Part shown: positions 9,484 to 27,201 of the stretch, piece after piece
Numbering within the stretch: the first letter of the stretch is position 1
Layout of the letters: each line of letters opens with the position of its first letter
NCBI RefSeq assembly: GCF_001049735.1
Contig: NZ_CVPC01000005.1
Location: forward strand, 372,001-436,000
Source of the DNA: Nereida ignava
GTDB taxonomy: Bacteria; Pseudomonadota; Alphaproteobacteria; Rhodobacterales; Rhodobacteraceae
Length of the DNA stretch: 64,000 bases
Direction of reading: 5' to 3'
Notes under the pieces: generated by a model
What the model was told of the DNA's origin: nothing
The model's database searches: none
Seen by the model: only the letters and a program-made list of their open reading frames with translations
Made by a program: the position numbers and the translations under genes

Positions 9484-10956
9484 TTAGCGAACCCGCTGAC
9501 CGTTGATATATTGCTCGCCATTTTCGCGCATCTCGATGGTGGTTTGCAAATCAGTTCCGTTTTCTGCAGGCCGCGTAAAGAACCCCATCATCATTTGTGC
9601 GCCAAACAGCTGTTCGGGTGCAAGGATGCCAAGTTGGGCCATCGTGCTCATGACTTCAGTGACGCCACTGAACGTAAACTCGGCCTTGCCTGCCATCGCG
9701 GGCATCGTCAGGTCGATTGGGTTTTGGGGGCCAACAAAGCGCATGTCGCCTTGACCGGTTGCTGTGGCGCCAAGCGCTGTCAGGGTCAGGTCGTTTAGAC
9801 GTGCAGTTTTGGGTGCAAAGGGCCCGCGTCCACCGTTCGTGAATTCACCTGTGCCCGAGATAGACACGGAAATCGTTGCGGCGGACCTGCCCAGACCGCC
9901 CTGTGGATCAAAAATGCTCCAGACGCTTTCGTTGATCTTTAGCCCTGCCAAAACCGCTTCAAGGGCATAGTCTGGCTCCGGCTCGGTTGGGTCAAATGCA
10001 ATCGGTGCAGAGCCTTTGACGCGGACTTCATCAAGCGTAGCGCTGATGGGTAACGGAAGCGCACCTGCCAACGTGAACGTCATATCAGAGGCATCTTGGC
10101 TATATTCAACACGAGTTGCGCTACTTGCGGCACGCGTGCTGCTTTGCGCTTGTCGTACAGTGCCGGTCCATGATCCGGTGCCATCTTGGGCCGAAAACGC
10201 CAGATCCGTCAGACCCGTGTTGTATGTGGTTTCAAACGAGGATTGCGGCGCGAAGGGTGCTTGGCTTGCTAGTGGGTAGGTGCCAGCGGCGCTTGTGGAG
10301 GACCCGGTGAATTGCGGTTCTTGTATGCGCCCGTTTACGTCAAATGCGCCGCCTGAGGTTGGGTCAGAAAAACGGGCAGAAATCGCGACCCCGTCAGCAG
10401 AGATACTTTGAGAAACGGCGCGCAGATCGCCAGTTTTATCTGTGCTGTTGCCCTCCACATTGGTCGCTTGGGCGCGGATGGTACCGTTTACGCCAGCATT
10501 CTCGGCGGTGATTGCATTGGCCGAAAAATCCACAGTCTCTGCATCATATGCATAGCTCAGATCATTGATGTCACCTGATGCAATCATGCTAAAGCCACTC
10601 GTGACTATTTCGCCGACGATCCGCAGGGGGCCGGTATCGTCAGATGTCTCGACAACGCTAATGGCAACTGGCCCACCAAGTGAAATGTCGACGCTGCCGC
10701 CCGCCCGCTGCGTCAGCTTTAGCGGCGGATACGCAAGGCTGGCCATGACGCCATCTTCCGGCGCGCCCAAGCCAAGCGTTAGGCCTTCGACCAAAATGCC
10801 ATCTTCCAGTAAGTTGAACTGACTAAGCACGACTGTGTCAGCGACACTTTTCATATCCTCAGCCCAACGCGCCCAAAGTTGCTCTGGTGTGATATCTGCG
10901 AAAACAGGCGCAGTGGTGCCAATGAGGAGAGCTGAACTGAGAAGAAAACGTCGCAT
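9484..10956 (-). CDS. DUF2125 domain protein, exported
   Basis: This 490-residue secreted protein has a cleavable signal peptide (RRFLLSSALLIGTTAPVFA). After it comes a long beta-rich body typical of DUF2125, repeatedly measuring sums such as GQGDMRFVGPQNPIDL near the C-terminus. Its role is unknown; a periplasmic or outer-membrane-associated location is inferred. ATG 10956, preceded by AGAGG, is chosen over a start at 11046 that would place 30 extra residues before the signal peptide. It is divergent from the crotonase gene, with 93 bases between. Confidence 0.75.
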   Translation of the reverse strand: MRRFLLSSALLIGTTAPVFADITPEQLWARWAEDMKSVADTVVLSQFNLLEDGILVEGLTLGLGAPEDGVMASLAYPPLKLTQRAGGSVDISLGGPVAISVVETSDDTGPLRIVGEIVTSGFSMIASGDINDLSYAYDAETVDFSANAITAENAGVNGTIRAQATNVEGNSTDKTGDLRAVSQSISADGVAISARFSDPTSGGAFDVNGRIQEPQFTGSSTSAAGTYPLASQAPFAPQSSFETTYNTGLTDLAFSAQDGTGSWTGTVRQAQSSTRAASSATRVEYSQDASDMTFTLAGALPLPISATLDEVRVKGSAPIAFDPTEPEPDYALEAVLAGLKINESVWSIFDPQGGLGRSAATISVSISGTGEFTNGGRGPFAPKTARLNDLTLTALGATATGQGDMRFVGPQNPIDLTMPAMAGKAEFTFSGVTEVMSTMAQLGILAPEQLFGAQMMMGFFTRPAENGTDLQTTIEMRENGEQYINGQRVR

Positions 10957-14414: not shown

Positions 14415-14875
14415 GGCAAAGACACAAGAAGACGCGCTGTCATCTGATCCGCTAGGATCACCACCAACCTGCGTTGCGCATCAAGCTGTGCGGTCTGCGT
14501 TGCAACTGTGGTGCCTGTTGCAGCATAGCTGGTAAAGCTGTCTACGACGCCACTTGTGACAACACTATCATCGGACAACCGCCGCAAAGTATATTGAGTT
14601 TCGCCAATTAGATTGAAACGCGTCGTAACTTGATCCGTTGTGATGCCCACGCCGTCTTCACGGATTTCAGTTTCATAACTAAGCTTGAATAACGGGGATT
14701 GTGCTGTGCCTAACCGATCTTCAAGCGCGTTTCTAAGGTCTAAAGACACGCGGTCGTCTGGTGGATCAAATGCGATTTGACCACGTTTGGCCGCGCCATT
14801 GTGTAACGGCGCAAATCCGCACGCCCCAAGAGCGAGCGGCGCGCCGATGCAAAATAATCGTCTAGATAACAACAT
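14411..14875 (-). CDS. lptE: LPS-assembly lipoprotein LptE
   Basis: LptE is the outer membrane lipoprotein that plugs LptD during lipopolysaccharide insertion. The 154-residue precursor has a signal peptide with lipobox LGAC near residue 19 and the characteristic CGFAPLHNG start of the mature protein. Its position between leuS and holA is the standard one. Its start overlaps the leuS end by 14 bases. Confidence 0.88.
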
Positions 14876-17405
14876 TCACAATCCGTCCGGGAACGACGAT
14901 GAGCTTTTTGGGCTGCCCGCCATCCAGTGCTTTGACCACAGCATTGTCCGCCAGCACCAGTTTTTCAATCTCATCTTTAGACATGTCCGCTGGGACCGCA
15001 ATTTCCGAGCGGCGCTTGCCATTGATCTGGATGGGCAGCGTGACGGTGTCATCCACCAGCATCTTTTCGTCAGCGACAGGCCAAGGGGCTGTCACCACAA
15101 GGCCGGTCTGCCCAAGGGCGGACCAGATATCTTCGGCCAGGTGTGGCGTCATCGGAGCGATCAGTTGGGCCAAAGTGCGCATTGCCTCTTGCTTGGCAGC
15201 AGCACCGGCTTTGGATTTTGAAAGCGTTGCGACAAAACCGTAAATTTTTGCAATTGCTGCGTTGAACCCGAAGGATTCCACACCGCCCGTTACATCATGG
15301 ATGGCTTTGTGCATATCGCGCAGCAGTGCATCGTCTTGGTCGTTGGCGGGTGCATCGGATTGGGCGATGTCCTGAGCCAAACGCCATACACGTCCCAAGA
15401 ATTTATGGGCCGCTTCTGCGCCAGATGCGGTCCATTCAACGTCGCGTTCGGGCGGGCTGTCTGACAGCACAAACCAGCGGGCGGTATCTGCGCCGTATGT
15501 GTCCACGATGATTTGTGGATCAACTACGTTCCGCTTTGATTTTGACATTTTGGCCGACGGAATGATCTCAACTTCTGTTCCATCCGCCAATTTGCCGTCC
15601 GTCACATCCTCGGGGAGGTGATAAACAGGGCGGCCTTTGGTGTCGCGGGTTTGGTAAATTTCGTGCGTGACCATTCCTTGTGTGAACAACGCGTCAAACG
15701 GCTCAACCGCACTTGCTGGTAGATGGCCCGTGATGTGCATCGCGCGTGCAAAGAACCGTGAATAAAGAAGGTGCAGAATTGCGTGCTCAATACCGCCAAT
15801 ATATTGATCGACGTTCATCCAATAGGCAGCCTCATCGCTGTCAATCGGAGTGGTCGCATTGGGGCTTGTGAAGCGACTGTAATACCACGAACTGTCCACG
15901 AACGTATCCATGGTGTCCGTTTCACGCTGCGCTGGCTTGCCGCATGATGGGCAATCGCAATCGCGCCACGTCGGGTGACGATCCAGCGGGTTACCCGGGA
16001 TATCGAATGAAACATCATCAGGTAGGCGGATCGGCAGGTTTTCTTTGCGCTCGGGCACAACGCCGCAAGCATCACAGTGGACAACCGGAATGGGGCAACC
16101 CCAATAGCGTTGCCGTGACAGACCCCAATCGCGCAGGCGATATTGTGTTTTGCCTTGGCCAACGCCTTCGCCCTCACAAAACGCAATTGCTGCATCAACT
16201 GCGGCTGCGCCTGTTTGCTGGGCCTCGCCAGCGAAACCTTTGACGTAGGTCACCACATCGGTTTTCGCGGGCACATACGCTTCGGTCAGCTCAGGTGCGC
16301 TGTCTGCATCAGGCAGATAAATAGGCGTAATCGGCAGATCATATTTGGTCGCAAAGTCAAAGTCGCGCTGGTCATGCGCAGGACAGCCAAAAATCGCACC
16401 GGTGCCGTAGTCCATCAAGATGAAGTTGGCGACATACACCGGCAATTCCCAAGAGGTATCAAGCGGGTGACGCACGCGCAGGCCCGTATCAAAGCCCATC
16501 TTATCAGCTTTTTCCAAAGCTTCTTCGGTTGTGGAGCCCTTGCGGCATTCGGCGTTGAAAGCGGCCAGATCGGCGTTGTCTTCTTCCAGTTGCTTGGCAA
16601 GGGGGTGGTCCGGCGAAATGCCCACAAAGGATGCACCCAAAAGAGTGTCGGGGCGCGTTGTGTACACTTCAATGCCGTCACGCCCATCAGGGCCGTTGAT
16701 CAATGAGAAGCTGAATTGCAGACCGCGTGACTGGCCGATCCAGTTTTCCTGCATCAGGCGCACTTTGGCGGGCCAGTTGTCCAGATTTTCAAGCGCGCCG
16801 CGTAATTCACCGGCCATATCGGAAATCTTAAAGAACCATTGCGTCAACTCGCGGCGTTCAACCTCGGCGCCGCTGCGCCAGCCTTTGCCGTCGATAACTT
16901 GTTCGTTGGCCAGAACCGTCATGTCTTCGGGGTCCCAGTTTACCACGGCGTTTTTGCGGTAGACCAAGTCGGAGGCGAGCATATCAAGGAACAGCGCTTG
17001 CTGCTGGCCGTAATACTCGGGATCGCACGTGGCGAATTCACGGGACCAATCAATAGACAAGCCAAGCGGCTTCATCTGATCGCGCATGTGCGCAATATTT
17101 GCGTAGGTCCAGTCTTTCGGATGGCCGCCGCTGGCCATTGCGGCATTCTCGGCGGGCATACCAAAGGCGTCCCAGCCCATTGGGTGCAGCACGTTGTGAC
17201 CTGTCGACATCTTATAACGCGCAATCACATCCCCCATGGTGTAGTTGCGCACGTGCCCCATGTGCAGATTGCCAGACGGGTAGGGAAACATCTCAAGTAC
17301 GTAATACTTCGGCTTTGACGTATCAGCTTTGGCTTTGAACACGTCTGCAGTGTTCCATTCAGCCTGCCATTTGGCCTCGATCTGTGCGGGGGTATAGCGG
17401 TCCAT
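14862..17405 (-). CDS. leuS: Leucine-tRNA ligase
   Basis: This enzyme charges tRNA-Leu. It is a full-length class I synthetase of 847 residues. The HIGH signature appears as [15 protein letters not shown] near residue 40-52, and the KMSKS signature as [10 protein letters not shown] near residue 620. The editing (CP1) domain lies between, including [13 protein letters not shown] and a zinc-like [12 protein letters not shown]. It starts the minus-strand leuS-lptE-holA-GST block. Confidence 0.97.
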
Positions 17406-17497
17406 GTCGGGGTCCTTCTAAATGCAAACGCCAAGCCGGTTTATGGCTTGGCGTGGTAAGTAAAATGCTTGGGCGCAAAAGGCCAGCCTGTGCAGCC

Positions 17498-17959
17498 TCA
17501 GAGTTTGCTGTCCGCAATCCGCAACTGCCGCGCGCGGGTCAGGATGGCGTCTTCAATAGCGCGGACAGTATCCACATCGGCGGGGCCACTGCGGGTTTGC
17601 AGCGCCACAGTTAGGCTGCGCGCATCAAGAGCGGGATCGCGGACATAGATCGTGGCGCGGTAGGCGGCGCGGCCACCGGGGGGTGTGCCGAATCCCGTGG
17701 CAATAACGCCCGAAAACGGATCAGCAGTTTGAACAGGCAAAAAGTTCAGCACATCAAGCGAGGCATTCCAGATGTATTTATTCACCTCAAGCTTGGTGTT
17801 GGGATCATCGGTATTAGCGAACAAATCCCAGATCGTGCTGGTGCGGGTTTCCTCAACGGCGGCGGCATCTTGTTGTGTGGCACCACGATCCTCGCAGGCC
17901 GCCAACAATCCGCATACCATTACGCTGAGACATATGTTTCTAACTGAAAATCCACGCAT
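17498..17959 (-). CDS. DUF3576 lipoprotein
   Basis: A 153-residue precursor with signal peptide and lipobox LLAAC near residue 21. The mature part contains SIWD/TIWDLF, VNKYIWNASLDVLNFLP and the DPFSGVIATGFG segment, matching DUF3576, a family of alphaproteobacterial lipoproteins of unknown function. It stands alone between leuS and the porin locus and is divergent from the porin. Confidence 0.8.
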   Translation of the reverse strand: MRGFSVRNICLSVMVCGLLAACEDRGATQQDAAAVEETRTSTIWDLFANTDDPNTKLEVNKYIWNASLDVLNFLPVQTADPFSGVIATGFGTPPGGRAAYRATIYVRDPALDARSLTVALQTRSGPADVDTVRAIEDAILTRARQLRIADSKL

Positions 17960-18245: not shown

Positions 18246-19178
18246 ATGAAAAACATTCTCTTCGCAACGACAGCGCTTGTAGCAACCGCTGGCATCGCAT
18301 CCGCAGACATCAAAATTACTGGTTCTGCTAACGTGGGCTTGAAGTACACAGAAAACCGTGCATCAGCAGCGGTAGCTGCGGCTGATGCAGCTGTAGGCGT
18401 ACCTGCCGCAGCAGCAGTTGTTGACAACAGCGTCGACGACGTAATCGTCCACAACGAGATCGACTTGAACATCGTAGCATCTGGCGAGTCAGACAACGGC
18501 ATCGCTTTCGGTGCTTCTGTTGACCTTGATGCGTCAGAAGCTGACCAGCGCGACACACAGTCTGGTAGTGGTGCAAACGACCCAGAAGTATACTTCTCTG
18601 TGAACGGCTTGACAGTAACTGTTGGCGCTGTTGGCAACGCTGGTGTCGTATTGAACACAGCTGAAGTTGGGTTCGACGGCTTGAACACTAACATCCACGT
18701 AGATGCGGTTGATGATTCAGCTGTAGATGGTGACGTGCACGTGTCATATGCTTTCGGCGACTACACTGTTGCAGCTTCAATGGGGTCTGACTCACAAGAC
18801 AGCGCGTTCTCAGTATCTGGCGCTGCTGGTGATTTTACTTACGCAGTAGGCTTCGCAAGTGATGATTCAGCAAACACAGACTACATGTCATTCGGTGTAG
18901 GCTACACAATGGGTGCATACAACTTCCAAGCGCTGATGGTTAACATTGATAACCCAGCAGGCACTGCAGACGAAGATACATTCGGTTTGTCAGCTGCTTA
19001 CACAATGGACGCAATGACATTTACAGTAGCGATGTCTGATACAGATGCTGCTGGTTCTGATGCTGCATATGGTATCGGTGCTTCATATGACCTCGGTGGC
19101 GGTCTCGCTATCAAAGGTGGTTTCGGCTCAGTCAGCGACAAGAGTGTTGCGGACCTCGGTCTGACAATGTCATTCTAA
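18246..19178 (+). CDS. Porin (expressed copy, mature domain supplied by the mobile element)
   Basis: An outer membrane beta-barrel porin of 310 residues. The signal peptide (residues 1-20, ending GIASA) is followed by DIKITGSANVGLKY and ends with a C-terminal phenylalanine, TMSF, the usual barrel-assembly signal. Residues ~35-60 form an Ala-rich loop and several Asp/Ser-rich loops follow. A 52-bp direct repeat covers codons 4-21 (18257-18308), so promoter, ribosome binding site, ATG and first residues lie outside the inferred element while the mature domain lies inside it. The sequence differs strongly from the second porin body, except at the signal peptide and at the 3' end. ATG 18246 has a clear ribosome binding site. 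Confidence 0.9.
   Translation: MKNILFATTALVATAGIASADIKITGSANVGLKYTENRASAAVAAADAAVGVPAAAAVVDNSVDDVIVHNEIDLNIVASGESDNGIAFGASVDLDASEADQRDTQSGSGANDPEVYFSVNGLTVTVGAVGNAGVVLNTAEVGFDGLNTNIHVDAVDDSAVDGDVHVSYAFGDYTVAASMGSDSQDSAFSVSGAAGDFTYAVGFASDDSANTDYMSFGVGYTMGAYNFQALMVNIDNPAGTADEDTFGLSAAYTMDAMTFTVAMSDTDAAGSDAAYGIGASYDLGGGLAIKGGFGSVSDKSVADLGLTMSF
18257..18308 (+). repeat. 52-bp direct repeat, left copy (inferred attL)
   Basis: This 52-base sequence is identical to 23662-23713; the flanking bases differ on both sides. It encodes porin signal-peptide residues from LFATTAL to ASAD. Inside it, GACAGCG (18269-18275) and CGCTGGC (18287-18293) form an imperfect inverted repeat with an 11-base spacer, a layout compatible with a tyrosine recombinase core site. 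Calling it an attachment site is an inference. Confidence 0.92.
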
Positions 19179-19238
19179 TCTAACGATTAGTATCGACTAT
19201 AGAGAGAGCGCATCTTCGGATGCGCTCTTTTCTTTTGG
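19171..19238 (+). repeat. 68-bp direct repeat at porin 3' end, copy 1
   Basis: This sequence matches 24972-25039 with one difference (A at 19220, G at 25021). It spans the last porin codons, the stop codon and the terminator hairpin. The second copy occupies the same place after the displaced porin, so both porin bodies are bracketed by the same 5' and 3' sequences. Confidence 0.93.
19205..19234 (+). terminator. Rho-independent terminator of the expressed porin
   Basis: A perfect 10-bp stem, AGAGCGCATC at 19205-19214 with GATGCGCTCT at 19219-19228, closes a TTCG loop and is followed by a T-rich tail. Confidence 0.93.
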
Positions 19239-19252
19239 CACTACGCATATGA

Positions 19253-19426
19253 CTAACGTGTGCTGTGCTTGCCAGTATGTTGTGTGAGTTCGGTTCTGAG
19301 GACGAGTATGCGTCTTAGAGAATCACGCTGCTGCTTGGTGCCCTGTAAGTGCTCAGCCAGCCACTTTTTATGCTCGAGCTCTCTGTGTAGCTGCTTGGTG
19401 AGTGCTGCTTCTGTCTTTGCTGCCAT
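19253..19426 (-). CDS. Small charged protein coupled to the recombinase
   Basis: A 57-residue gene, starting MAAKTEAALTKQLHRELEHK. It is rich in Lys, Arg, Glu and Gln with heptad-like leucines and is predicted by eye to be helical. Its ATG shares the A of the recombinase stop codon (TGATG at 19428-19424), the classic arrangement for translational coupling. The family is not recognised. Being co-translated with a recombinase, it might be a directionality factor or other accessory, but that is only a guess. Confidence 0.6.
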   Translation of the reverse strand: MAAKTEAALTKQLHRELEHKKWLAEHLQGTKQQRDSLRRILVLRTELTQHTGKHSTR

Positions 19427-19992
19427 CACAATAGCTCCACTGCATTAGCTAACTGCTCTGGATTTACATCAATATATCTCTGGGTTGTGCTGATATGCCT
19501 ATGTCCAGCTAAGGCTGCTAACAAGCGAACATTGATGCCTGTGTTGGCAAGCTTGGTAATGAATGTTCTGCGTCCACTGTGACTGGTTGCTCCTTTAAGC
19601 CCACAGTCTTTGTATATCTGTAGAAACAGCTGACACATTGTATTTGCGCTAAAGCTGGTGCGTATCTGTGTCATAAACAAGGGATCATCGCTGTTACGCA
19701 GGGCCACTGTGCTGTGATACTCACGTAGTATGCGCCTTAGCTTGCTGCTCACATATACTGTGCGAGCATATCCGCCCTTGGTCTGTGCTCCTTGAATAGT
19801 GAACTGACTGCGTACCTTGCCTCGCTCATCATACACATCGCCTACAACTAAAGCTGCAATCTCTATTGCGCGAAGTCCTGCTAAGAAGCTCACGTGTATG
19901 ATGGTCTGATCGCGTAGTGTGTGCTTGCGTGTGCTGCAGAAGTTGATCACGTTGCGGTACTGAGTGTCTGTTAGGGTAAGTGCTTGTTTCAT
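19426..19992 (-). CDS. Small tyrosine recombinase (catalytic domain only)
   Basis: A 188-residue site-specific recombinase. The catalytic set is visible: Arg in AGLRAIEIAAL, Lys in TKGGYAR, His-x-x-Arg in TSHSGRRTF, His in LAGHRHIS, and the Tyr nucleophile in TTQRYIDVN. The N-terminal core-binding domain of larger integrases is missing; the protein starts directly with MKQALTLTDTQYRNVINF. The start at 19992 is preferred because small recombinases of this type begin with such a KQALTLT motif; a start at 20079 would add 29 unrelated residues. It is the first gene of a two-gene unit with the 57-residue protein. Confidence 0.88.
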   Translation of the reverse strand: MKQALTLTDTQYRNVINFCSTRKHTLRDQTIIHVSFLAGLRAIEIAALVVGDVYDERGKVRSQFTIQGAQTKGGYARTVYVSSKLRRILREYHSTVALRNSDDPLFMTQIRTSFSANTMCQLFLQIYKDCGLKGATSHSGRRTFITKLANTGINVRLLAALAGHRHISTTQRYIDVNPEQLANAVELL

Positions 19993-20903
19993 ATGCCAAT
20001 CTCTCACGCTGTGTGTGCGTATAGCATACGGTCTGATCGATGATCTGGGCGACCAGATATGGGCCAATATGATCTTCAATGATCACAGTGTGTTAGCTTG
20101 CTCTCCCAGCAAATACTTATTTTATGAGAGTTGAGGTGGTGAGCGAAGGCAACGCAGTGCCAGTTTTATTTAGACAGAGCGCACAGTGGATAAATAACTG
20201 TGTAAGGCAAAACAGGCAAATTTTTCAAATAAGGGTAGGCACTGAGCAAACCAAGGCACAGGCAATATAGGCAACAATACAAACTGGATTAAGGTTAGCA
20301 CGCCGACTGTAATAGTGCTGCAAGTCCGTTCTGATGTGAGACGGTGAGCAAATGTAGTGCCAGTTATACGCTTCAATCAACTACCCCATCCTTGTAGGTG
20401 GGATGCTTTAAGTAGCGAAGGTATAAATGTTCAACCAGCCTGCTGCTTTGATTGTCGTAATAGTGTGGTGAATGAGCTGCTGGCGAATGTGTTGGTAGCT
20501 CAGCAAGTGAGATGGATGACAAGCTCGTAAGAGACCCATCAATGTATAAGGTAGCCTGTCTGTGCGGGTCTTATATATGTGTGTGATATGCCAGTAATAG
20601 AGATGATAGCAAAACCTGCTCTTCCAGATATGGTTTGGTAGTACAGACTAACGTAGTGACGCGAATGTGCGTGTGTGTTGGATCGAGGCCTCAATAGGCC
20701 TTGATCTAACTGCTCTGCGAATGCCTATAGATGTATATGAACTTATATTTACTGCGTTAGCAAAGACACCAAGCATAGAGAACTGAGCGTATGCGAAGTG
20801 AACTATGCGAAGGTGATACACAGACACGTGCCGCGTGGATGTGTCTAAAGCAATAGCACTAATGATCCCAGAACACGTGGCTGCGTTGATAAATACATCA
20901 GTT
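19993..20903. other. Long non-coding stretch inside the element
   Basis: About 900 bases between the small recombinase and the small-gene operon show no convincing gene on either strand. The pentamer GCGAA occurs seven times on the plus strand (20143, 20415, 20483, 20661, 20718, 20793, 20808). The sequence AGTGCCAGTT recurs exactly 200 bases apart at 20156 and 20356, each time shortly after GGTGAGC. An inverted repeat CACAGT/ACTGTG lies at 20182-20202. This could hold an origin, recombinase arm sites or a small RNA; none can be proven from sequence. Confidence 0.5.
20681..20706. other. Strong hairpin in the element's non-coding region
   Basis: GATCGAGGCCT (20681-20691) pairs with AGGCCTTGATC (20696-20706) over 11 positions, with one G-U pair and a four-base loop. 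No T-run follows, so it is not a standard terminator. It could be an RNA structure or a protein-binding palindrome. Confidence 0.55.
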
Positions 20904-20916
20904 AAGGAGATGTATG

Positions 20917-21249
20917 ATGGGACTACAAATACTGGAGCACGTACGAGATCAGCTCAAGCAATGTAATGCTCTAAGCACTGATCGCGAGTTCTGCGAGCAA
21001 TGGCTGGGCAAGAGTGAGTGTTATCTACGTACATTAAGGTATGGGCATCTATCCCCAAGTGCTGATGCTATGATGACCTGTGCAAGCAAACTCAGCTGGT
21101 ATGCACGACAGCTCAACAACAGCACTCAAGTACATCACAAGCACTGGGCTGGTGTATTCGATCAGTTGCGTACTGACTGTGTGAGTGCTGTTGAACAACA
21201 AGCACAGCTCAACTGGCGGTTACGTATGAATGGGTCTGCAGCTCAATGA
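20917..21249 (+). CDS. Small protein of unknown function, element-encoded (DUF6626-like?)
   Basis: A 110-residue protein beginning MGLQILEHVRDQL and containing EFCEQWLGKSECYLRTLRYGHLSPSADAMMTCASKL. The pattern resembles small DUF6626-type proteins of marine alphaproteobacterial mobile elements, with an HTH-like feel; this is from memory and uncertain. AAGGAGA at 20904-20910 is a strong ribosome binding site and fits ATG 20917 better than ATG 20914. Its stop overlaps the next start as ATGA, so it leads a coupled small-gene operon. Confidence 0.7.
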   Translation: MGLQILEHVRDQLKQCNALSTDREFCEQWLGKSECYLRTLRYGHLSPSADAMMTCASKLSWYARQLNNSTQVHHKHWAGVFDQLRTDCVSAVEQQAQLNWRLRMNGSAAQ

Positions 21250-21335
21250 TTTTTATCTGTGTAAATCTTGTGGTGGAGTACTTAGCAAATCAACCAGGTG
21301 AATATTTACCCCCACGTCTGCGAGTGCGGCTGTGA
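21246..21335 (+). CDS. 29-residue coupled small protein
   Basis: A short frame of 29 residues beginning MIFICVNLVVEYL. It starts by ATGA overlap with the preceding gene (ATG 21246-21248, TGA 21247-21249) and ends by GTGA overlap with the next (GTG 21332-21334, TGA 21333-21335). This double coupling is the main reason to regard it as real. No function is recognised; it may serve only to pass ribosomes along. Confidence 0.45.
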   Translation: MIFICVNLVVEYLANQPGEYLPPRLRVRL

Positions 21336-21622
21336 CAGCACTTACGGACATACAACGCTCGTTGAATGCAATACGTGCTATAGAGCGTGATAGTAGTACC
21401 GATGTGAGACTTGCGGCACTTGCACTTCTAACTGCTACGACAGCTGATATAGCTAAGGAACTACGAGGTGAGAGTGTGCCTAAACAGACGCCTAAGCAAC
21501 CTATTAAAGCTCCTCCTATTCCTCCTCCAAGTCCAACAAATCAACCGCAGCAAGCGCCGCCACAACACAAGGATGCTGCTCGACCCTTTACAGAGCCAGA
21601 GCAGCAACGTGAGCCAGAATAA
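21332..21622 (+). CDS. Small element protein with proline-rich tail
   Basis: A 96-residue protein with GTG start, coupled by GTGA overlap to the 29-residue frame. The first half is helical (RSLNAIRAIER, VRLAALALLTATTADIAKEL). The second half is a Pro/Gln-rich tail with repeated PPIPPPSP- and QPQQAPP-like stretches, probably disordered. The family is not recognised. No good ribosome binding site precedes it, so translation likely depends on coupling. Confidence 0.5.
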   Translation: MTALTDIQRSLNAIRAIERDSSTDVRLAALALLTATTADIAKELRGESVPKQTPKQPIKAPPIPPPSPTNQPQQAPPQHKDAARPFTEPEQQREPE

Positions 21623-21688
21623 TATTTGACGTTGGGAGCACGTCACCTAACTCACTTAGTACCATAGTGATACTAAAGGAGTTAGGCA

Positions 21689-22048
21689 ATGCCAACATTA
21701 GACGAACTACTCAAGAAATATAACATTGATGCAACGGTGAACCCTCAATCTGGTCCACGTGCAAAACTACTCGCGCAGGCAAACAGAATGCTGTCTCAGC
21801 TGGACAAGTATAAGACTGAGCAAGAGCTGGATGGTGAGACGACACAGTACTGGTGGGCTCCGCAAAGCGTTGACGGCAAGCGCCGTGTGTCAGCACGTTA
21901 TGGTGCTAAGGTGGTTGAGGGTATGGCTACATATGCTGACAACACATTGGATAGTGTGCGCAGCACAATCCAAACGTTCCACAAGCTTATTGAAGACAGT
22001 GATGACGCTACGTGGGCACACGAAGAAGAGCGTCGCAAAAAAAAGTAA
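21689..22048 (+). CDS. Small element protein, possible frameshift donor
   Basis: A 119-residue protein of unknown function, preceded by AAAGGAG with good spacing. It starts MPTLDELLKKYNIDATV and contains YWWAPQSVDGKRRVSARYGAKVVEGM. It ends in the basic EEERRKKK. Proteins of similar look occur in other marine alphaproteobacterial elements as far as I recall, but I cannot name the family. Its last codons form the sequence A AAA AAG TAA, and the next gene lies in the -1 frame from this point. Confidence 0.72.
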   Translation: MPTLDELLKKYNIDATVNPQSGPRAKLLAQANRMLSQLDKYKTEQELDGETTQYWWAPQSVDGKRRVSARYGAKVVEGMATYADNTLDSVRSTIQTFHKLIEDSDDATWAHEEERRKKK

Positions 22049-22467
22049 TACGGCGTGTTGTTCGTATATATGAGCAAGTAGACACTGGGCCGATTTATGA
22101 TGAGTTGGTCCAGTGGATGCGTACCTATAGATCGCTACAAGCTCGTATGTGGTCTGCTAAGGACAGCACGCAGAAGAAGATAGACGATACGCTTGAGGCA
22201 CTGGGTGAGCGTATAGACGAACGTATTACGGAGCTGACTGACAATGAGCGTATGGCGCTGGACTGTTGGAAACACGGCATACTGCCTGGCATATATGAGA
22301 TGGACCGCGAGGCATTGATGCAGAAACCCTATGTGAGCATCCGCAAGATTGAGCGGTGGGATGACGAATATAACGTTGATGATGCTGTACCAACAGATGA
22401 TGCTGAGCACGACACGGGTGTCATCAGTGATCAGCTGCGTGGCTTCTTAGATATGTACAAAGCTTAG
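22012..22467 (+). CDS. Small element protein or C-terminal half of a frameshift fusion
   Basis: The frame encodes up to 151 residues, nominally from GTG 22012. That start lies 37 bases inside the preceding gene and has no ribosome binding site. The body contains IYEQVDTGPIYDELVQWM, a charged helical middle (KKIDDTLEALGERIDERITEL) and the acidic tail DDAEHDTGVISDQLRGFLDMY. The lack of a convincing start suggests that it may be made by -1 frameshifting from the upstream gene, giving a fusion of about 260 residues. Function and family are unknown. Confidence 0.6.
   Translation: MGTRRRASQKKVIRRVVRIYEQVDTGPIYDELVQWMRTYRSLQARMWSAKDSTQKKIDDTLEALGERIDERITELTDNERMALDCWKHGILPGIYEMDREALMQKPYVSIRKIERWDDEYNVDDAVPTDDAEHDTGVISDQLRGFLDMYKA
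22039..22048 (+). promoter_or_regulatory. Possible -1 ribosomal frameshift site
   Basis: A run of eight A residues (22037-22044) followed by G gives A AAA AAG directly before the TAA stop, in phase with the upstream gene. This is the most efficient known bacterial -1 slippery heptamer, used in E. coli dnaX. A shift there leads straight into the downstream 141-codon frame. No clear downstream stem was found, and the upstream GAAGAAGAG is only a weak Shine-Dalgarno-like enhancer. Confidence 0.5.
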
Positions 22468-22586
22468 GAGTGTTTGTCTCAACGCATACAGTCCTAAGCT
22501 CACCTTATAAGCGTACATATCTCTACAGTTATGCGTGTATGCCGTAAGTATTGCTCAAGGGGCAGGCAGGCATAGTGATGCTGGTA

Positions 22587-23540
22587 TCAAATACTCATAC
22601 TGCTGATTGCATCACTTACAATCTCTGTACGTTGATGAAGTAGGTTTGGTTCAAGATGTGCGTAGCGCTGCGTCATCTGTAAACTGCTGTGTCCCAATAG
22701 TGTCTGCACTTCGTACAAGCTTACTCCTTTATTGATAAGCATACTGGCATACGTATGACGTAGATCGTGAATACGAACACCAGTTAGTCCAGCTTTGTCA
22801 CGAGCTGTGAACCAACTTGCATAGAAGCTGTGATATGCGGTGCGTGTATATGGGTTGGTAAACACATAGCAGTCTGGCTTTGTAGGTAAGTCCAATCGAT
22901 CAGCTTGAGTGCGTGTTGCGTCCAGTACTTCGAGTGCTGATGAGCTGAGTATAATGCGTCTTGATCTGCCATTCTTACTGCGAGGCACTGTCCAGACACG
23001 CTTCGCAATATCTACGTCTTGCCAACGCATATTACGTGCTTCACCTTTGCGAGCGCCTGTGAGGAGTAAGAGCTGAACGAATAGATATAAGAACTGATTA
23101 CTGCTGGCACGGCAGGCTTTGAGCAGACTATTGATCTCATCGTCACTCAAGAAGCGCTGTGTGTAATCTCCCACTGTCAGCTTCTTTATGTTCTGCTGAT
23201 ACTGGCTGTATCCAGTGAGATGTCCCCAGTGTCGTGCAAGGTTAAGCATCCTGTTCATTAGGTGAATGTGCTTATTGATTGTGCTTCGCTTATACTCTCG
23301 CAGGATCTGCTGCCTTACCCATACATCCAGAACAGGGTTAGTCAGCTCATCAAGGCTATAGCGACCAAGCTTCTCTCGCATATGCGTGTTGTACACGCTC
23401 CAGTCGTGATAAGCTAAGCGCTTAGTGGCTTTGGCATGCGGGTAATAATGCTCATCGAAGAACGTATTAAGTGTGAGTAGAGGTGCGGCGCTACTATGCT
23501 GGGGATCGCGACTATTAGATCGTCTTAGGAAAGAAATCAT
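22587..23540 (-). CDS. Tyrosine recombinase (integrase) next to the right repeat
   Basis: A full-length phage-type integrase of 317 residues. The N-terminal half holds the SAM-like core-binding domain (TLNTFFDEHYYPHAKATKR and onward). The catalytic domain shows Arg in LLTGARKGEARNM, Lys in PRSKNGRSRRI, His-x-x-Arg in IHDLRHTYA, His in LLGHSSLQ and the Tyr in MTQRYAHLEP. ATG 23540 has a clear AGGAG ribosome binding site, so it is chosen over an in-frame ATG at 23570. The gene ends the element 122 bases before the right repeat, the usual place for the integrase that acts on that site. Confidence 0.92.
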   Translation of the reverse strand: MISFLRRSNSRDPQHSSAAPLLTLNTFFDEHYYPHAKATKRLAYHDWSVYNTHMREKLGRYSLDELTNPVLDVWVRQQILREYKRSTINKHIHLMNRMLNLARHWGHLTGYSQYQQNIKKLTVGDYTQRFLSDDEINSLLKACRASSNQFLYLFVQLLLLTGARKGEARNMRWQDVDIAKRVWTVPRSKNGRSRRIILSSSALEVLDATRTQADRLDLPTKPDCYVFTNPYTRTAYHSFYASWFTARDKAGLTGVRIHDLRHTYASMLINKGVSLYEVQTLLGHSSLQMTQRYAHLEPNLLHQRTEIVSDAISSMSI

Positions 23541-23653
23541 CGTGTGCTCCTGTAAGTAATACAGCAGCATTATGTTCAGCTATATGATTGGACGAGTGCC
23601 GAAATGCCATGTGAATCGTAGTATAAAGTCATCGTTACTGCGATCTGTCATAA

Positions 23654-24979
23654 TCTAATCGTCTCTTCGCAACGACAGCGCTTGTAGCAACCGCTGGCAT
23701 CGCATCCGCAGACGTTACGTTCTCCGGCTCAGGTGAAGCTGGTATCTACCGCACTGAGGCAGCTGATGCTGTAGCTGCAAAGCTTGGTGTGAAAGTTGGT
23801 ACAGCAAGTGCAACCGTCGGCGCATATGCGTATGATTCCACGACTGGTGCGCTAACATACACAGCTGCCACTGGTACTGCCGCTGCAGCAGTAGCTTCTG
23901 AAATCCAAACGACACGTAACTCCATTCAAGCGACAAAAGCAGCTATTGCAGCTCACCAAGCCAATATGGATGCAGATACTACAGAAGCAGATTACAACAC
24001 TGAGAAAGATCTCAAGACAGCTGACGAAGCTGAGCTTGCTCGTCTAGAAGCGGTTCTTGCAAAGCAAGTTGGCACAGCAGCAGCTGCAGCAGTACCAGCT
24101 GGCGACATGACAGCTTACTCTGGCTACCAAGCCGACGTTACTCTCTCAACTGAGACAGACAGCGGTATCAAGTTCACAATGGGCTTCGACCTTGAAGCTG
24201 GCCTGATGGCTGACCAAGACGACGACCGTGAGATGGACACCAAAGACGGTTCTATCGCTAACTCAACACTGACAATGGAAGCTAACGGCTACACATTGGT
24301 AATCGGTCAAGACGAAATCGACGATCTGTATGACGACTCACAGAACGGCGACATCTCACTGTCTGGCAACATGAATGGCTTGTCATTCACAGTTGTACAT
24401 GACTTTGAAGACAGTGTTGTAGCTAAAGCGGCTACATACAAAGCCGCCGTCGCAGCGACGACAGCAGCCACAGCTGCTGATGCCACATACAAAGCAGCTA
24501 CGTTCACAGACGCAGTTGCAGCTGTACACGAAGGCACATCGCTTTCACTCGGTTACACAATGGGCCCAGCAGCTCTGTCACTCGTAAGCACAACAGCTAA
24601 CGACCGTGGCAACTCAGCTACTGAGTTCGGCATCGACTACACAGTGTCAGACACTCTGAGCTTCTCAGTTGACTATGACACACAAGGCAAGCGTGATGCG
24701 ATCGCTACAGTTGGTGTGACATATGCTATCGATGCGCTGACAATCACTGCTAAGTACGCAGATGACAAAAACCACGCTGGCAACACCAACAAAGATGGCA
24801 AAGCTTCTACAAACTTGTCAGTTGCTTACGCTCAAGGCCCAGTCTCTGCGACATTCGCAACAGACGAGTCAAATGCATGGTGGATCAACACACAGTACGA
24901 CCTCGGTGGCGGTGCATCAGCATTCGCGACAGTTGACCACCAAGAGTTCGCTGTAGCTGGTCTTAGCTTCGCATTCTAA
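23654..24979 (+). pseudogene. Displaced porin body without start codon (silent resident copy)
   Basis: An open frame follows the TAA at 23651 and enters the 52-bp repeat in the same frame as the expressed porin signal peptide. It reads LFATTALVATAGIASAD, then VTFSGSGEAGIYRTEA, and ends AGLSFAF. No ATG, GTG or TTG precedes the repeat, and no ribosome binding site or promoter-like leader is visible, so it should be silent while the element is present. The barrel is complete otherwise. Residues ~70-130 of the frame are helical and polar (EIQTTRNSIQATKAAIAAHQ and more), an unusual insertion for a porin loop. It is intact coding potential rather than decayed sequence. Confidence 0.85.
23662..23713 (+). 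repeat. 52-bp direct repeat, right copy (inferred attR)
   Basis: Identical over 52 bases to 18257-18308. The base before it (G at 23661) differs from the left copy (T at 18256), as does the base after (G at 23714 against A at 18309). The offset is 5405 bases. It is the junction between the element and the displaced porin. Confidence 0.92.
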
Positions 24980-25039
24980 TCTAACGATTAGTATCGACTA
25001 TAGAGAGAGCGCATCTTCGGGTGCGCTCTTTTCTTTTGG
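24972..25039 (+). repeat. 68-bp direct repeat at porin 3' end, copy 2
   Basis: This matches 19171-19238 with one difference and covers the last codons, stop and terminator of the displaced porin. It lies outside the 52-bp-bounded element. Confidence 0.93.
25006..25036 (+). terminator. Rho-independent terminator after the displaced porin
   Basis: The same hairpin as at 19205, AGAGCGCATC-TTCG-GGTGCGCTCT, with one G-U pair in place of A-T, followed by a T-rich tail. Confidence 0.9.
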
Positions 25040-25082: not shown

Positions 25083-26567
25083 ATGCAGCGACCGTCCGAG
25101 CAACAGCTACAAACTGCGTTCAAATCCGCCCTTGCCGCGATGAACGCCAAAAAGTTCGCGCTTGCGGCCCAGCAATTCCAGAAAATTTTACGCGTCGTGC
25201 CAAATCATGGCCCGCCTCACCTGCATCTTGGAACGCTTTACACCAAAGGCGGTAAGCCGGATGCGGCGGTGACCCATTTGGCGGCAGCGGCCAAGCAGAT
25301 GCCGAAAGAGCCCGCGGTTCATATGCAATATGGTGTCGCCCTTGGTGCTGTGGGGCAGTACAACAAAGCGGTGTCCGCCCTTGGTAAAGCGGAAAAGCTT
25401 GCGCCGGCTTCTGTTGCTGTGTTGGCTAATTCCGCGCATGTGTATCAACTGATGGGCGAATTGAAGAAGGCAGAGTTTTATCTGCGCAAGGCCCTGAAGC
25501 TACAGCCAAATGACGGCAGTCTTTATCGCCTGTTGTCTATCGCGCGGAAGTTCACGCCCGATGATCCGTATCTTGCGAAAATGCTGGCGATCACGCCGGA
25601 GCAATTGGCAAATGACACGGACTGCTGGGAATTAGATTTTGCGATCACCAAGGCGCTTGAGGACACCAAAGCCTATGAGGCCGCGTTCCCTTATCTAAAG
25701 CGCGGCAACGATTTGGTTGCGGCGAATTACCCCTATGACCCCCAAGCGTGGCGCGATCAGGTGGCACAGCTGCAAAGCGCGCAGTCTGGCCTTGATCCTG
25801 CTGCACCTCATCCGGATCATATCAAAGACGCGCCAATTTTTGTGACCGGCATGCCGCGGTCCGGCACCACGTTGATTGAACAGATTATTGCGGCGCATTC
25901 TGATGTGACCAGCATGGGGGAGACGGGGTTTGCCTCTGGCGCGGTTGAGCGGCTTTTGCGCGATGGCAGTAGCTATAAGCCCGTTAGTGATGTAGCGGAT
26001 AGGTTGCGCAGTGACGTGGCGGATAAGTACCTTGCGGATGTGGCGGCCCGTTATCCCGCTGCGAAGCGGACCGTTGATAAATCCATCCAAACGTATCTCT
26101 ACCTTGGGGCGATCAAAACGATCATGCCCAACGCCAAGTTCTTGATTGTTCAACGGGACCCACGCGACAATCTGTTGTCGATTTATCGCAATCTGTTCCA
26201 GGCGGGCACCCACAGATACGCCTATGATTTTGAAAGCCTTGCGGATCACTATTTGGCTTTTCGGGATATGGTCTCGTTTTGGAAACAGCAGATGCCGGAT
26301 GATATTTACATCGCTGATTATGATGCGTTGGTTCGTGATCCCGAAGACAAGGCCCGTGCGCTGATTGCGGCGTGTGGTTTGGAGTGGCAGGATCAGTGTC
26401 TAGAGTTTCATAAATCGACAGGCGCGGTCAAAACGCTATCTCTGGCGCAGGTCCGTCAGCCAATTTACAAGTCGTCGCAAAAGGCATGGCAGCGTTACGG
26501 CGATGGGGTTATGCCCTTGCTAAAGGCTTTGGAAAAACGAGGTATCGATGTCACTGAATGGGATTAA
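25083..26567 (+). CDS. Tetratricopeptide-repeat sulfotransferase
   Basis: A 494-residue protein joining TPR-like helical repeats (residues ~1-170) to a C-terminal sulfotransferase domain. The PAPS-binding 5' loop is FVTGMPRSGTTLIEQIIAAH near residues 255-275, followed by the usual ETGF segment. The later VQRDPRDNLLSIYRNLF gives the 3'-phosphate contacts. The acceptor is unknown; such enzymes modify peptides or surface sugars. The start ATG 25083 follows GAAGGG. The yggS start overlaps its end by 20 bases. Confidence 0.88.
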   Translation: MQRPSEQQLQTAFKSALAAMNAKKFALAAQQFQKILRVVPNHGPPHLHLGTLYTKGGKPDAAVTHLAAAAKQMPKEPAVHMQYGVALGAVGQYNKAVSALGKAEKLAPASVAVLANSAHVYQLMGELKKAEFYLRKALKLQPNDGSLYRLLSIARKFTPDDPYLAKMLAITPEQLANDTDCWELDFAITKALEDTKAYEAAFPYLKRGNDLVAANYPYDPQAWRDQVAQLQSAQSGLDPAAPHPDHIKDAPIFVTGMPRSGTTLIEQIIAAHSDVTSMGETGFASGAVERLLRDGSSYKPVSDVADRLRSDVADKYLADVAARYPAAKRTVDKSIQTYLYLGAIKTIMPNAKFLIVQRDPRDNLLSIYRNLFQAGTHRYAYDFESLADHYLAFRDMVSFWKQQMPDDIYIADYDALVRDPEDKARALIAACGLEWQDQCLEFHKSTGAVKTLSLAQVRQPIYKSSQKAWQRYGDGVMPLLKALEKRGIDVTEWD

Positions 26568-27201
26568 CGAGCGGATCGCGAAGACGTGTGAGCAGTTTGG
26601 GCGCGATGTGGCCGATGTTCAGCTTATTGCGGTGTCAAAAGTTCAACCTAATGCCCGTGTCGCGGACGTGTTGGCCCAAGGACACCGTCTTTATGGTGAG
26701 AATAAAGTGCAGGAAGCAGTTGGCAAATGGCCCGACTTCCGTGATGAGTTTGCGGATGTAAACGTGCATCTGATTGGGCCGCTTCAGACCAACAAAGCCC
26801 GCCAAGCGATGGAGCTTTTTGATGCCATCCATTCAGTCGACCGTCCGAAGCTGGCTGGCACCCTTGCGCGGCTTGCGCAAGAAGTTGGGGCGTGTCCGGA
26901 CTTATTTGTACAGGTAAATACAGGCGAAGAGCCTCAAAAAGCGGGCGTATTGCCTTCGGATGCGGACGCGTTTGTCGCCGAGGCACGTGCACTTGATTTG
27001 CCAGTGAAAGGTTTGATGTGCATCCCGCCGGTAGATGAAGAACCGGCTTTGCACTTTGCGTTGCTGCGCAAGATCGCGGAACGCAACGGTTTGGCGGGGT
27101 TATCAATGGGGATGAGCAGTGATTTTGAGACCGCCATCCAACTTGGTGCCACTCATATTCGTGTAGGATCCGCCATTTTTGGCGAACGTGATTACAGCTA
27201 G
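26548..27201 (+). CDS. YggS-family pyridoxal phosphate homeostasis protein
   Basis: This PLP-binding protein maintains vitamin B6 balance and lacks known enzymatic activity. The 217-residue protein has the PLP lysine context LIAVSKVQPN, the YGENKVQEAVGKW motif, HLIGPLQTNKARQA, GLMCIPP, and the phosphate-binding LSMGMSSDFETAIQLGATHIRVGSAIFG. Length and motifs match the family (PROSC/YggS). It overlaps the sulfotransferase gene by 20 bases. Confidence 0.93.
   Translation: MSLNGINERIAKTCEQFGRDVADVQLIAVSKVQPNARVADVLAQGHRLYGENKVQEAVGKWPDFRDEFADVNVHLIGPLQTNKARQAMELFDAIHSVDRPKLAGTLARLAQEVGACPDLFVQVNTGEEPQKAGVLPSDADAFVAEARALDLPVKGLMCIPPVDEEPALHFALLRKIAERNGLAGLSMGMSSDFETAIQLGATHIRVGSAIFGERDYS

Follow-up and report, generated by a model that had tools for sequence, protein, structure and literature searches.

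A putative recombinase-driven porin switch with its crossover site in signal-peptide codons of Nereida ignava and its relatives

In mycoplasmas, site-specific recombination connects one promoter to silent surface-protein genes, as in the Vsa system of M. pulmonis, the Vpma system of M. agalactiae (with Xer1), and the Vsp system of M. bovis (excerpts of PMC2268961). In Vsa, the joined part also includes the ribosome site and the beginning of the coding region, and a recombinase gene lies nearby in these systems; the Vpma site precedes the start codon (-1 to -72), and the Vsa genes have 714 nt of coding sequence in common (same excerpts of PMC2268961). Here we describe a 64-kb stretch of the genome of Nereida ignava (contig NZ_CVPC01000005.1, positions 372,001 to 436,000; "the window"), in which a 5.4-kb unit that encodes two tyrosine recombinases (Int1 and Int2) lies inside the gene for an outer-membrane porin of the Porin_4 family. 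Taking everything together, we think that this unit is probably best explained as the integrated, direct form of a recombinase-driven porin switch.

As in Vsa, Vpma, and Vsp, one promoter would serve silent surface-protein genes, and a recombinase gene lies nearby. Unlike Vsa and Vpma, as far as those excerpts describe them, the joint falls at codon 5 of the gene for an outer-membrane porin, the silent porin bodies can be up to hundreds of kb away, and one form of the system is an inserted unit. By analogy, Vsa/Vpma switching appears to be the closest known system in its mechanism, though it differs in site, protein class, distance, and mobility.

In the sap S-layer system of Campylobacter fetus, one promoter serves several genes with a conserved 5' part, by inversion. 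The porin system resembles sap in its single promoter, conserved 5' part, and proposed inversion, but it concerns another class of protein, and we know of no recombinase of the Int1 clade and no inserted element in sap. Tail-fibre inversion in phages Mu and P1 and the R64 shufflon join a constant N-terminal part to alternative C-terminal parts, whereas nearly the whole mature porin would be exchanged here, with a cleaved signal peptide as the constant part. The elements e14 (in icd) and SXT (in prfC) integrate within a coding sequence and supply the missing part, which is nearly equal to the part that was lost. The unit in the window also enters a coding sequence and supplies the missing part, but the porin body that it supplies is different. 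Similarly, phage PA-2 alters the cell surface with a porin of its own, Lc, but Lc is a complete gene, while the unit's porin would be start-less until it is joined to the resident start. We found no such porin switch in the literature on porin inversion, recombinases, signal peptides, and phage receptors (our coverage of subscription papers and preprints was slight). A survey of conservative site-specific recombination, in its excerpted part, reports none in its four alphaproteobacterial samples (PMC5903667).

The unit in the window and its joints

Both joints of the unit can be read from the sequence. They are the two copies of a perfect direct repeat (52/52 nt identical, 5405 bp apart; coordinates are in Table 1) within the porin's signal-peptide codons, and we reject chance as a plausible source of a perfect 52-mer pair in 64 kb. 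The left copy is preceded by ATGAAAAACAT, with GAAGGAAA further upstream, and the left porin is complete from its start (MKNILFATTALVATAGIASAD). The right copy is preceded by CTAATCG. An in-frame stop lies just 5' of the right copy, and between that stop and the repeat there is no ATG, GTG, or TTG; the first listed start in this frame is a GTG at 23789, which is 3' of the signal peptide. If the flanks are joined in silico (18246-18308 with 23714-24979), the frame is restored and a single open porin of 442 amino acids (aa) results. Conversely, the computed joint of the predicted circle leaves the left porin body without a start. In all of this the original prediction held up: it had claimed the bounding repeat, the in-frame fusion of the resident start to the unit's porin body, the start-less right porin, the two recombinases, the in-frame insertion into signal-peptide codons, and a circle whose porin would be start-less.

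The two porins of the window also have about 68 bp in common at their 3' ends, along with the terminator. The G+C content (per kb) is 0.45-0.48 at 19-24 kb, 0.51 over both porin ends, and 0.50-0.57 outside. There is no tRNA in the window, which rules out a tRNA integration site for the unit.

The only other genome of the genus in our search, G001 (we number genomes, loci, and contigs with G, L, and C), has one porin at this locus and no unit. Its gene order is holA-lptE-leuS-DUF3576, porin, TPR/sulfotransferase, YggS, LDT, ribA, and response regulator, and it has no Int1 match at 1e-30. The sequence after the terminator of its porin (GGGCCGCGCTGCGCGATAC) resembles the sequence after the right porin of the window (GGGGCCTGCTGCGCGATAC) and not that after the left one. 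Because the 3' flank of the right body matches G001 and that of the left body does not, the right body is in its native place, and the left body and its near-copy of the terminator arrived with the unit. We read the G001 locus as the unoccupied site, in another species of the genus; the original prediction had staked itself on such an empty site existing in some genome. One porin, intact gene order, and no Int1 are also found in G395, which belongs to the same genus as G235 (a genome with Int1; see below). The unit thus has direct-repeat joints, an integrase gene at one end, and an empty site in a relative of another species, as an integrative element would. We reject a plain tandem duplication, as the right copy is start-less and the relatives are split at the same codon.

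A clade of recombinases beside start-less porins

Int1 and Int2 both match the Phage_integrase family. Six residues of Int1 (R174, K199, H268, R271, H294, and Y303), which we take to be the catalytic R-K-H-R-H-Y residues of tyrosine recombinases, are invariant across 19 relatives.

We searched for Int1 in overlapping samples of genomes from the family, the order, and the class. In the family, 23 of 394 genomes have matches at E ≤ 1e-30. Eighteen of these (including the window) are 42-100% identical, at 19 loci; the other five are G104, with a 120-aa fragment, and G120, G266, G277, and G328, at 31-34% identity. The order-level search (390 genomes, 15 hits) added G412, G513, G552, G564, and G640, as well as the weaker G467 and G515. 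In the class-level search (385 genomes, 5 hits), only four weak matches were new (G677, G707, G837, and G929). Rhodobacterales bacterium LSUCC0031 also has an Int1 of this clade, which brings the clade to 24 genomes and 25 loci. (G117 is Marivivens donghaensis KCTC 42776, G289 is Rhodobacteraceae bacterium XHP0102, and G012 and G025 are metagenome-assembled genomes.)

At all 25 loci, a Porin_4 gene is found no more than about 0.5 kb from Int1. The adjoining porin is start-less at 20 of them and has a start in G031, G129, G174, G259, and G144. (In G031, the joint coincides with an ATG by chance.) Counting by genome, 22 of the 24 hold a porin without a leader start; the exceptions are G129, where a contig end cuts the site, and G144, which has none. 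As a control, we considered 160 recombinase loci. The five with 48-57% identity to Int1 all have a porin, and a porin profile scan found none at the 155 more distant loci (27-40% identity), with the caveats that the profile was built from this family and may miss distant porins and that some of these loci are short. Likewise, in the four genomes with matches at 31-34% identity there is no porin within 1.5 kb of the match, and in the six weaker genomes from the order and class searches the porins are on contigs other than the recombinase's. In another control, with 30 porin loci among 61 relatives, both loci from genomes with Int1 (L359 and L361) are start-less, while 25 of the 28 from other genomes have a leader-type start (our pattern did not resolve L350, L367, and L376). 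So the system has one expressed copy, silent copies without a start, and, as described below, a common recombination site, as a surface switch would.

In G104, the Int1 fragment (L063, about 9971-10333) lies close to a native porin locus that is intact and contains another complete porin. This is perhaps a decayed system.

A proposed crossover site within the signal-peptide codons

The expressed and start-less porins of one genome become alike at a single base, the junction of ATGAAAAAGGTT and CTCTTCGC. In many genera, the limit of identity falls between ATGAAAAAGGTT and CTCTTCGCTACTACTGCCCTGGT in the expressed gene, versus between unrelated DNA and (C/A)TCTTCGCTACT in the start-less one. The first 24 nt are at least 95% identical in 15 of 26 within-genome pairs, as compared to 1.8% of 1249 cross-genome pairs. 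(The 26 pairs include three rows from G412 and G142 that are spoiled by contig ends, three pairs from G289, which has three porins, and G104, which has the Int1 fragment only; the spoiled rows also enter the cross-genome pairs, and the comparison is without G129, G513, and one porin of G552.) In the 30 nt upstream, most pairs are just 0.17-0.37 identical, with higher values for G384 (0.47), G104 (0.53), G224 (0.60), and G144 (0.90). That the upstream half changes its partner and the downstream half stays with the body is what strand exchange within a short spacer predicts.

The start-less sites have an inverted repeat around a 7-bp spacer. It is clearest in G640, where it reads CAATAGTA-TCTTCGC-TACTACTG, and the right arm ACTACTGCC codes for part of TTAL. 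The mean arm symmetry is 4.3 of 8 positions at the start-less sites (n=20) and 1.68 of 8 at the leader sites (n=25; P=4.5e-7, or about 3e-5 given that the register is the best of 66, and related flanks are not independent). Seven start-less sites score just 2-3 of 8. An earlier set of 22 start-less sites had a mean of 4.05; the final set drops G142, which was empty there, and a misanchored site from G552, and neither set took in G513, G129, or two contig ends of G412.

We propose that Int1 and its relatives act at a site inside the signal-peptide codons (LFATTAL) of a Porin_4 gene and that crossover in the 7-bp spacer (TCTTCGC or similar) exchanges the upstream sequence. One promoter, one start codon, and the first four codons would be joined in frame to varying porin bodies, and the other bodies would be start-less and silent. 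Sites in opposite orientation would give inversion, and sites in direct orientation would give excision or integration. The window would be the direct form: an element of 5.4 kb, with a start-less porin body, Int1, Int2, a DUF6626 protein, and three small genes, has entered the resident porin gene, so that the start now leads into the element's own body, and the resident body, though intact, is silent. Int1, rather than Int2, is presumably the enzyme. Overall, comparing the sequences gives good support for a recombinase-linked porin switch whose site lies in the signal-peptide codons; the comparisons show the association of Int1 with porins and the recurrence of breakpoints at one codon.

Could these breakpoints be assembly artefacts, or could conserved porin leaders have undergone ordinary homologous recombination with each other? 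In favour of this, the family as a whole conserves LFATTAL, many of the genomes are draft assemblies, and the site is where several contigs end. But the 5' breakpoint recurs in many genera, including in the single-contig genomes G369, G046, G513, and G552, always next to a recombinase of the one clade, and the leaders are far less alike between genomes than within one. We consider this explanation extremely improbable.

The silent bodies seem to be maintained. Outer-membrane proteins end in F, and every start-less frame that is not cut by a contig end is open and has F as its final residue. The ratio of nonsynonymous to synonymous substitution rates (dN/dS) is 0.09-0.54 across 12 within-genome pairs (one of these, from G144, is of two complete porins; more divergent pairs are outside the 12). 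Such ratios are in line with selection acting on both bodies, which one would expect if each of them is expressed some of the time. It also bears on the idea that the recombinases of the window are dead and that it shows a fixed relic of an old insertion or tandem duplication, kept by chance. Decay does occur, as the fragment in G104 illustrates, but Int1's catalytic residues are intact, the repeat is still perfect over 52 bp, and the start-less bodies are open with dN/dS below 1. A relic is very unlikely, and under the proposed switch, recombination presumably still takes place.

Locus states and the possible spread of the unit

We classified the 24 clade genomes from our reading of their locus maps, on which recombinase matches appear only at 38% identity or above. 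Four have a direct unit in the native locus (5405 bp in the window, 5.1 kb in G144, 5.6 kb in G117, and about 5.6 kb in G552). In ten, the halves of the native locus are split at the site; the halves are on different contigs in G012, G235, G259, G142, G129, and LSUCC0031, and the others are G289, G174, G513, and G046. Seven (G369, G564, G384, G154, G148, G224, and G025) have a whole native locus and a silent body with Int1 elsewhere, and we left G031, G412, and G640 unclassed. Outside of the direct units, all ten expressed/silent pairs on the same contig are in opposite orientation (one each in G046, G148, G154, G174, G224, G369, G384, and G513, and two in G289), at distances from about 6 kb up to 0.76 Mb (for G369, provided that its single contig is circular). 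In the group of G117, G552, G129, and G046, the porin at the native locus runs the opposite way. It looks like the switch often operates by inversion.

On a single contig, G289 carries a complete porin, two start-less bodies, and two Int1 genes that differ from each other (L047 and L056), which makes a three-way switch possible. In G412, two porin contigs and the Int1 contig have 92 bp in common and end at the site; in G129, a contig begins at the site; and in G142, there is a 127-bp overlap between two contigs beside it. Mixed populations could give such breaks, but so could plain repeats or mixed strains. In G369, a 90-aa piece that is 43% identical to Int2 lies between the complete porin and YggS (L088, 3902-4171), and is perhaps a relic of a unit like the window's.

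The original prediction, that the unit is a mobile element that swaps porins, stands in part. The insertion is in frame, G001 has one porin, and the order int2-DUF6626-orf96-orf119-orf151-int1 recurs at the same place in the locus in two other genera (G117 and G552). But most relatives with Int1 lack an inserted unit, and recombinases of the same clade accompany inverted or remote silent porins; because of this, the porin switch seems to be the general phenomenon and the mobile unit one form of it. (int2-DUF6626-int1 is present in G289, and most clade loci lack the block.) That the window's unit is a mobile form is likely. Between G117 and G552, the expressed bodies have 65% identity and the start-less ones 46%, as expected if a body travels with the unit. 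Int1 identity is weakly related to leuS identity (rho 0.22 over 252 non-independent pairs, with some leuS pieces partial); for example, in G289 and G513, of the same genus, leuS is 94% identical and the Int1 proteins are at most 52% alike. The recurring block, the body identities, and this weak link favour gain by transfer, and the unit would thus move between cells.

Alternatively, the second body and the recombinases may have been in the lineage for a long time, as a resident switch. The window would then be a direct arrangement, which can delete but cannot invert, and G001 would be the deleted state. The two bodies of many Int1 genomes are more closely related to each other than to any other porin body, and most Int1 genomes lack the inserted arrangement. 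However, the two bodies in the window have no blastp match to each other at 1e-10, the unit has a lower G+C content and the same gene order in two other genera, and Int1 tracks leuS only weakly. We view a purely resident switch as rather unlikely.

Several observations weigh against an integrated, mobile switch. The support for recombination comes entirely from comparing sequences. In G144 (L049, 5269-11572), unlike in the other direct units, both porins of the direct pair keep a ribosome site and an ATG, and the 27 nt upstream are identical; this unit has no match to the int2-DUF6626 block. Within-genome identity over the first 24 nt is lower in G031 (0.92), G640 (0.83), LSUCC0031 (0.79), G289 (0.71-0.83), G104 (0.67), and G046 (0.54, where the repeat has almost gone), and the start-less sites of G384, G224, G174, and G117 show no arm symmetry (2 of 8). 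Since within-genome pairs are often each other's closest relatives, many silent bodies derive from duplication; in many genomes with related porins, the second body came by local duplication rather than from outside. G001 is not a strain of the same species (its leuS is 88% identical to the window's). Finally, Int2 may act as the enzyme or as a partner in the window, though it is absent from most clade loci.

If the proposed switch is family-wide and mobile, then the arrival of a cassette would switch the surface protein, and the displaced body would be archived, start-less, beside the recombinase, from where inversion or excision could recall it. We give this broader scheme about even chances. 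If it is true, receptors would vary both within a clone and by gene transfer, and one recombinase clade would link the integration of mobile elements to phase variation. The switch would also explain start-less porin frames that annotation may overlook, and each genome predicts the exact alternative joint. The benefit may be a change of surface receptor under selection by phages. In the excerpted part of one study, a single porin accounts for about 49% of the Ruegeria pomeroyi outer-membrane proteome (PMC9938194; we compare it as a porin, not as a proven ortholog), so porins can dominate the outer membrane in this group of bacteria. Dedicated porin exchange would be a direct route to variation in receptors and uptake, and phage receptors are little known in these bacteria.

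As to the unit's origin, a family scan of eight window proteins gave significant matches to integrase families only, plus a weak match to an uncharacterized family for DUF6626, and none to structural, packaging, or replication genes of prophages or satellites. We reject an origin from phages: none of 50,697 phage records matches the DNA, the best-segment identity of the Int1 relatives listed from viral contigs does not exceed 37%, and a profile scan of 80 of their loci found no porin (14 further loci were outside the scan). On viral contigs, single-sequence scans found no relative of orf119, orf151, or Int2, and a porin-alignment scan with one short pattern confirmed nothing. We also rejected an origin from plasmids. 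Int1 has matches in 2611 plasmid records, and the 20 listed are at 35% identity over 87% of the query; two plasmid records with best places at 60-80% are outside those 20.

DUF6626 is present in 21 of 374 family genomes, and the genome of the window has four copies. One of these (L338, contig C15, 23000-40000) is accompanied by a relative of Int2 (56% identity), a DUF6641-like protein, a T4-type clamp-loader-like ATPase (phrog_168, 6.1e-22), and a 1091-aa helicase (ResIII/SNF2). Therefore, Int2 and DUF6626 appear to belong to a wider set of element-like loci.

Table 1. Features of the window around the interrupted porin gene.
Feature	Position	Strand	Evidence or remarks
Native left flank: leuS (14862-17405) and DUF3576 lipoprotein-like gene (17498-17959)	14862-17959	-	Same neighbours in G001 and most relatives
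Expressed porin: resident start and first codons fused in frame to the unit's porin body	18246-19178	+	Porin_4, 1.9e-25
Left 52-bp repeat copy (left attachment joint)	18257-18308	+	Spacer TCTTCGC at 18259-18265
Left porin 3' end and terminator-like hairpin	19158-19238	+	Near copy of 24959-25039 (91%)
Int2, short tyrosine recombinase	19426-20079	-	Phage_integrase (PF00589), 1.8e-25; phrog_216
DUF6626 protein	20914-21249	+	PF20331, 1.9e-36
orf96, no family assigned	21332-21622	+	Relatives in G117 and G552 units
orf119	21689-22048	+	Weak likeness to DUF6641-like protein of L338
orf151, no family assigned	22012-22467	+	Relatives in G117 and G552 units
Int1, tyrosine recombinase of the porin-associated clade	22587-23570	-	PF00589, 1.1e-35
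Proposed recombination site on the start-less side	23656-23678	+	Arms 23656-23663 and 23671-23678, spacer TCTTCGC; 4/8 arm positions pair
Right 52-bp repeat copy (right attachment joint)	23662-23713	+	
Resident porin body, open and start-less	23663-24979	+	Porin_4, 1.8e-10; 3' flank matches G001
Native right flank: TPR/sulfotransferase gene and YggS-like gene	25083-27201	+	

On two other contigs of the window's genome, C19 and C24 (L337 and L339), there are two more copies of DUF6626, and after each comes a small protein of about 120 aa, similar in the two cases. The structural model of the left porin has 16 strands, with a mean predicted local distance difference test score (pLDDT) of 78, and its best matches in PDB are the porins of Rhodopseudomonas blastica and Rhodobacter capsulatus.

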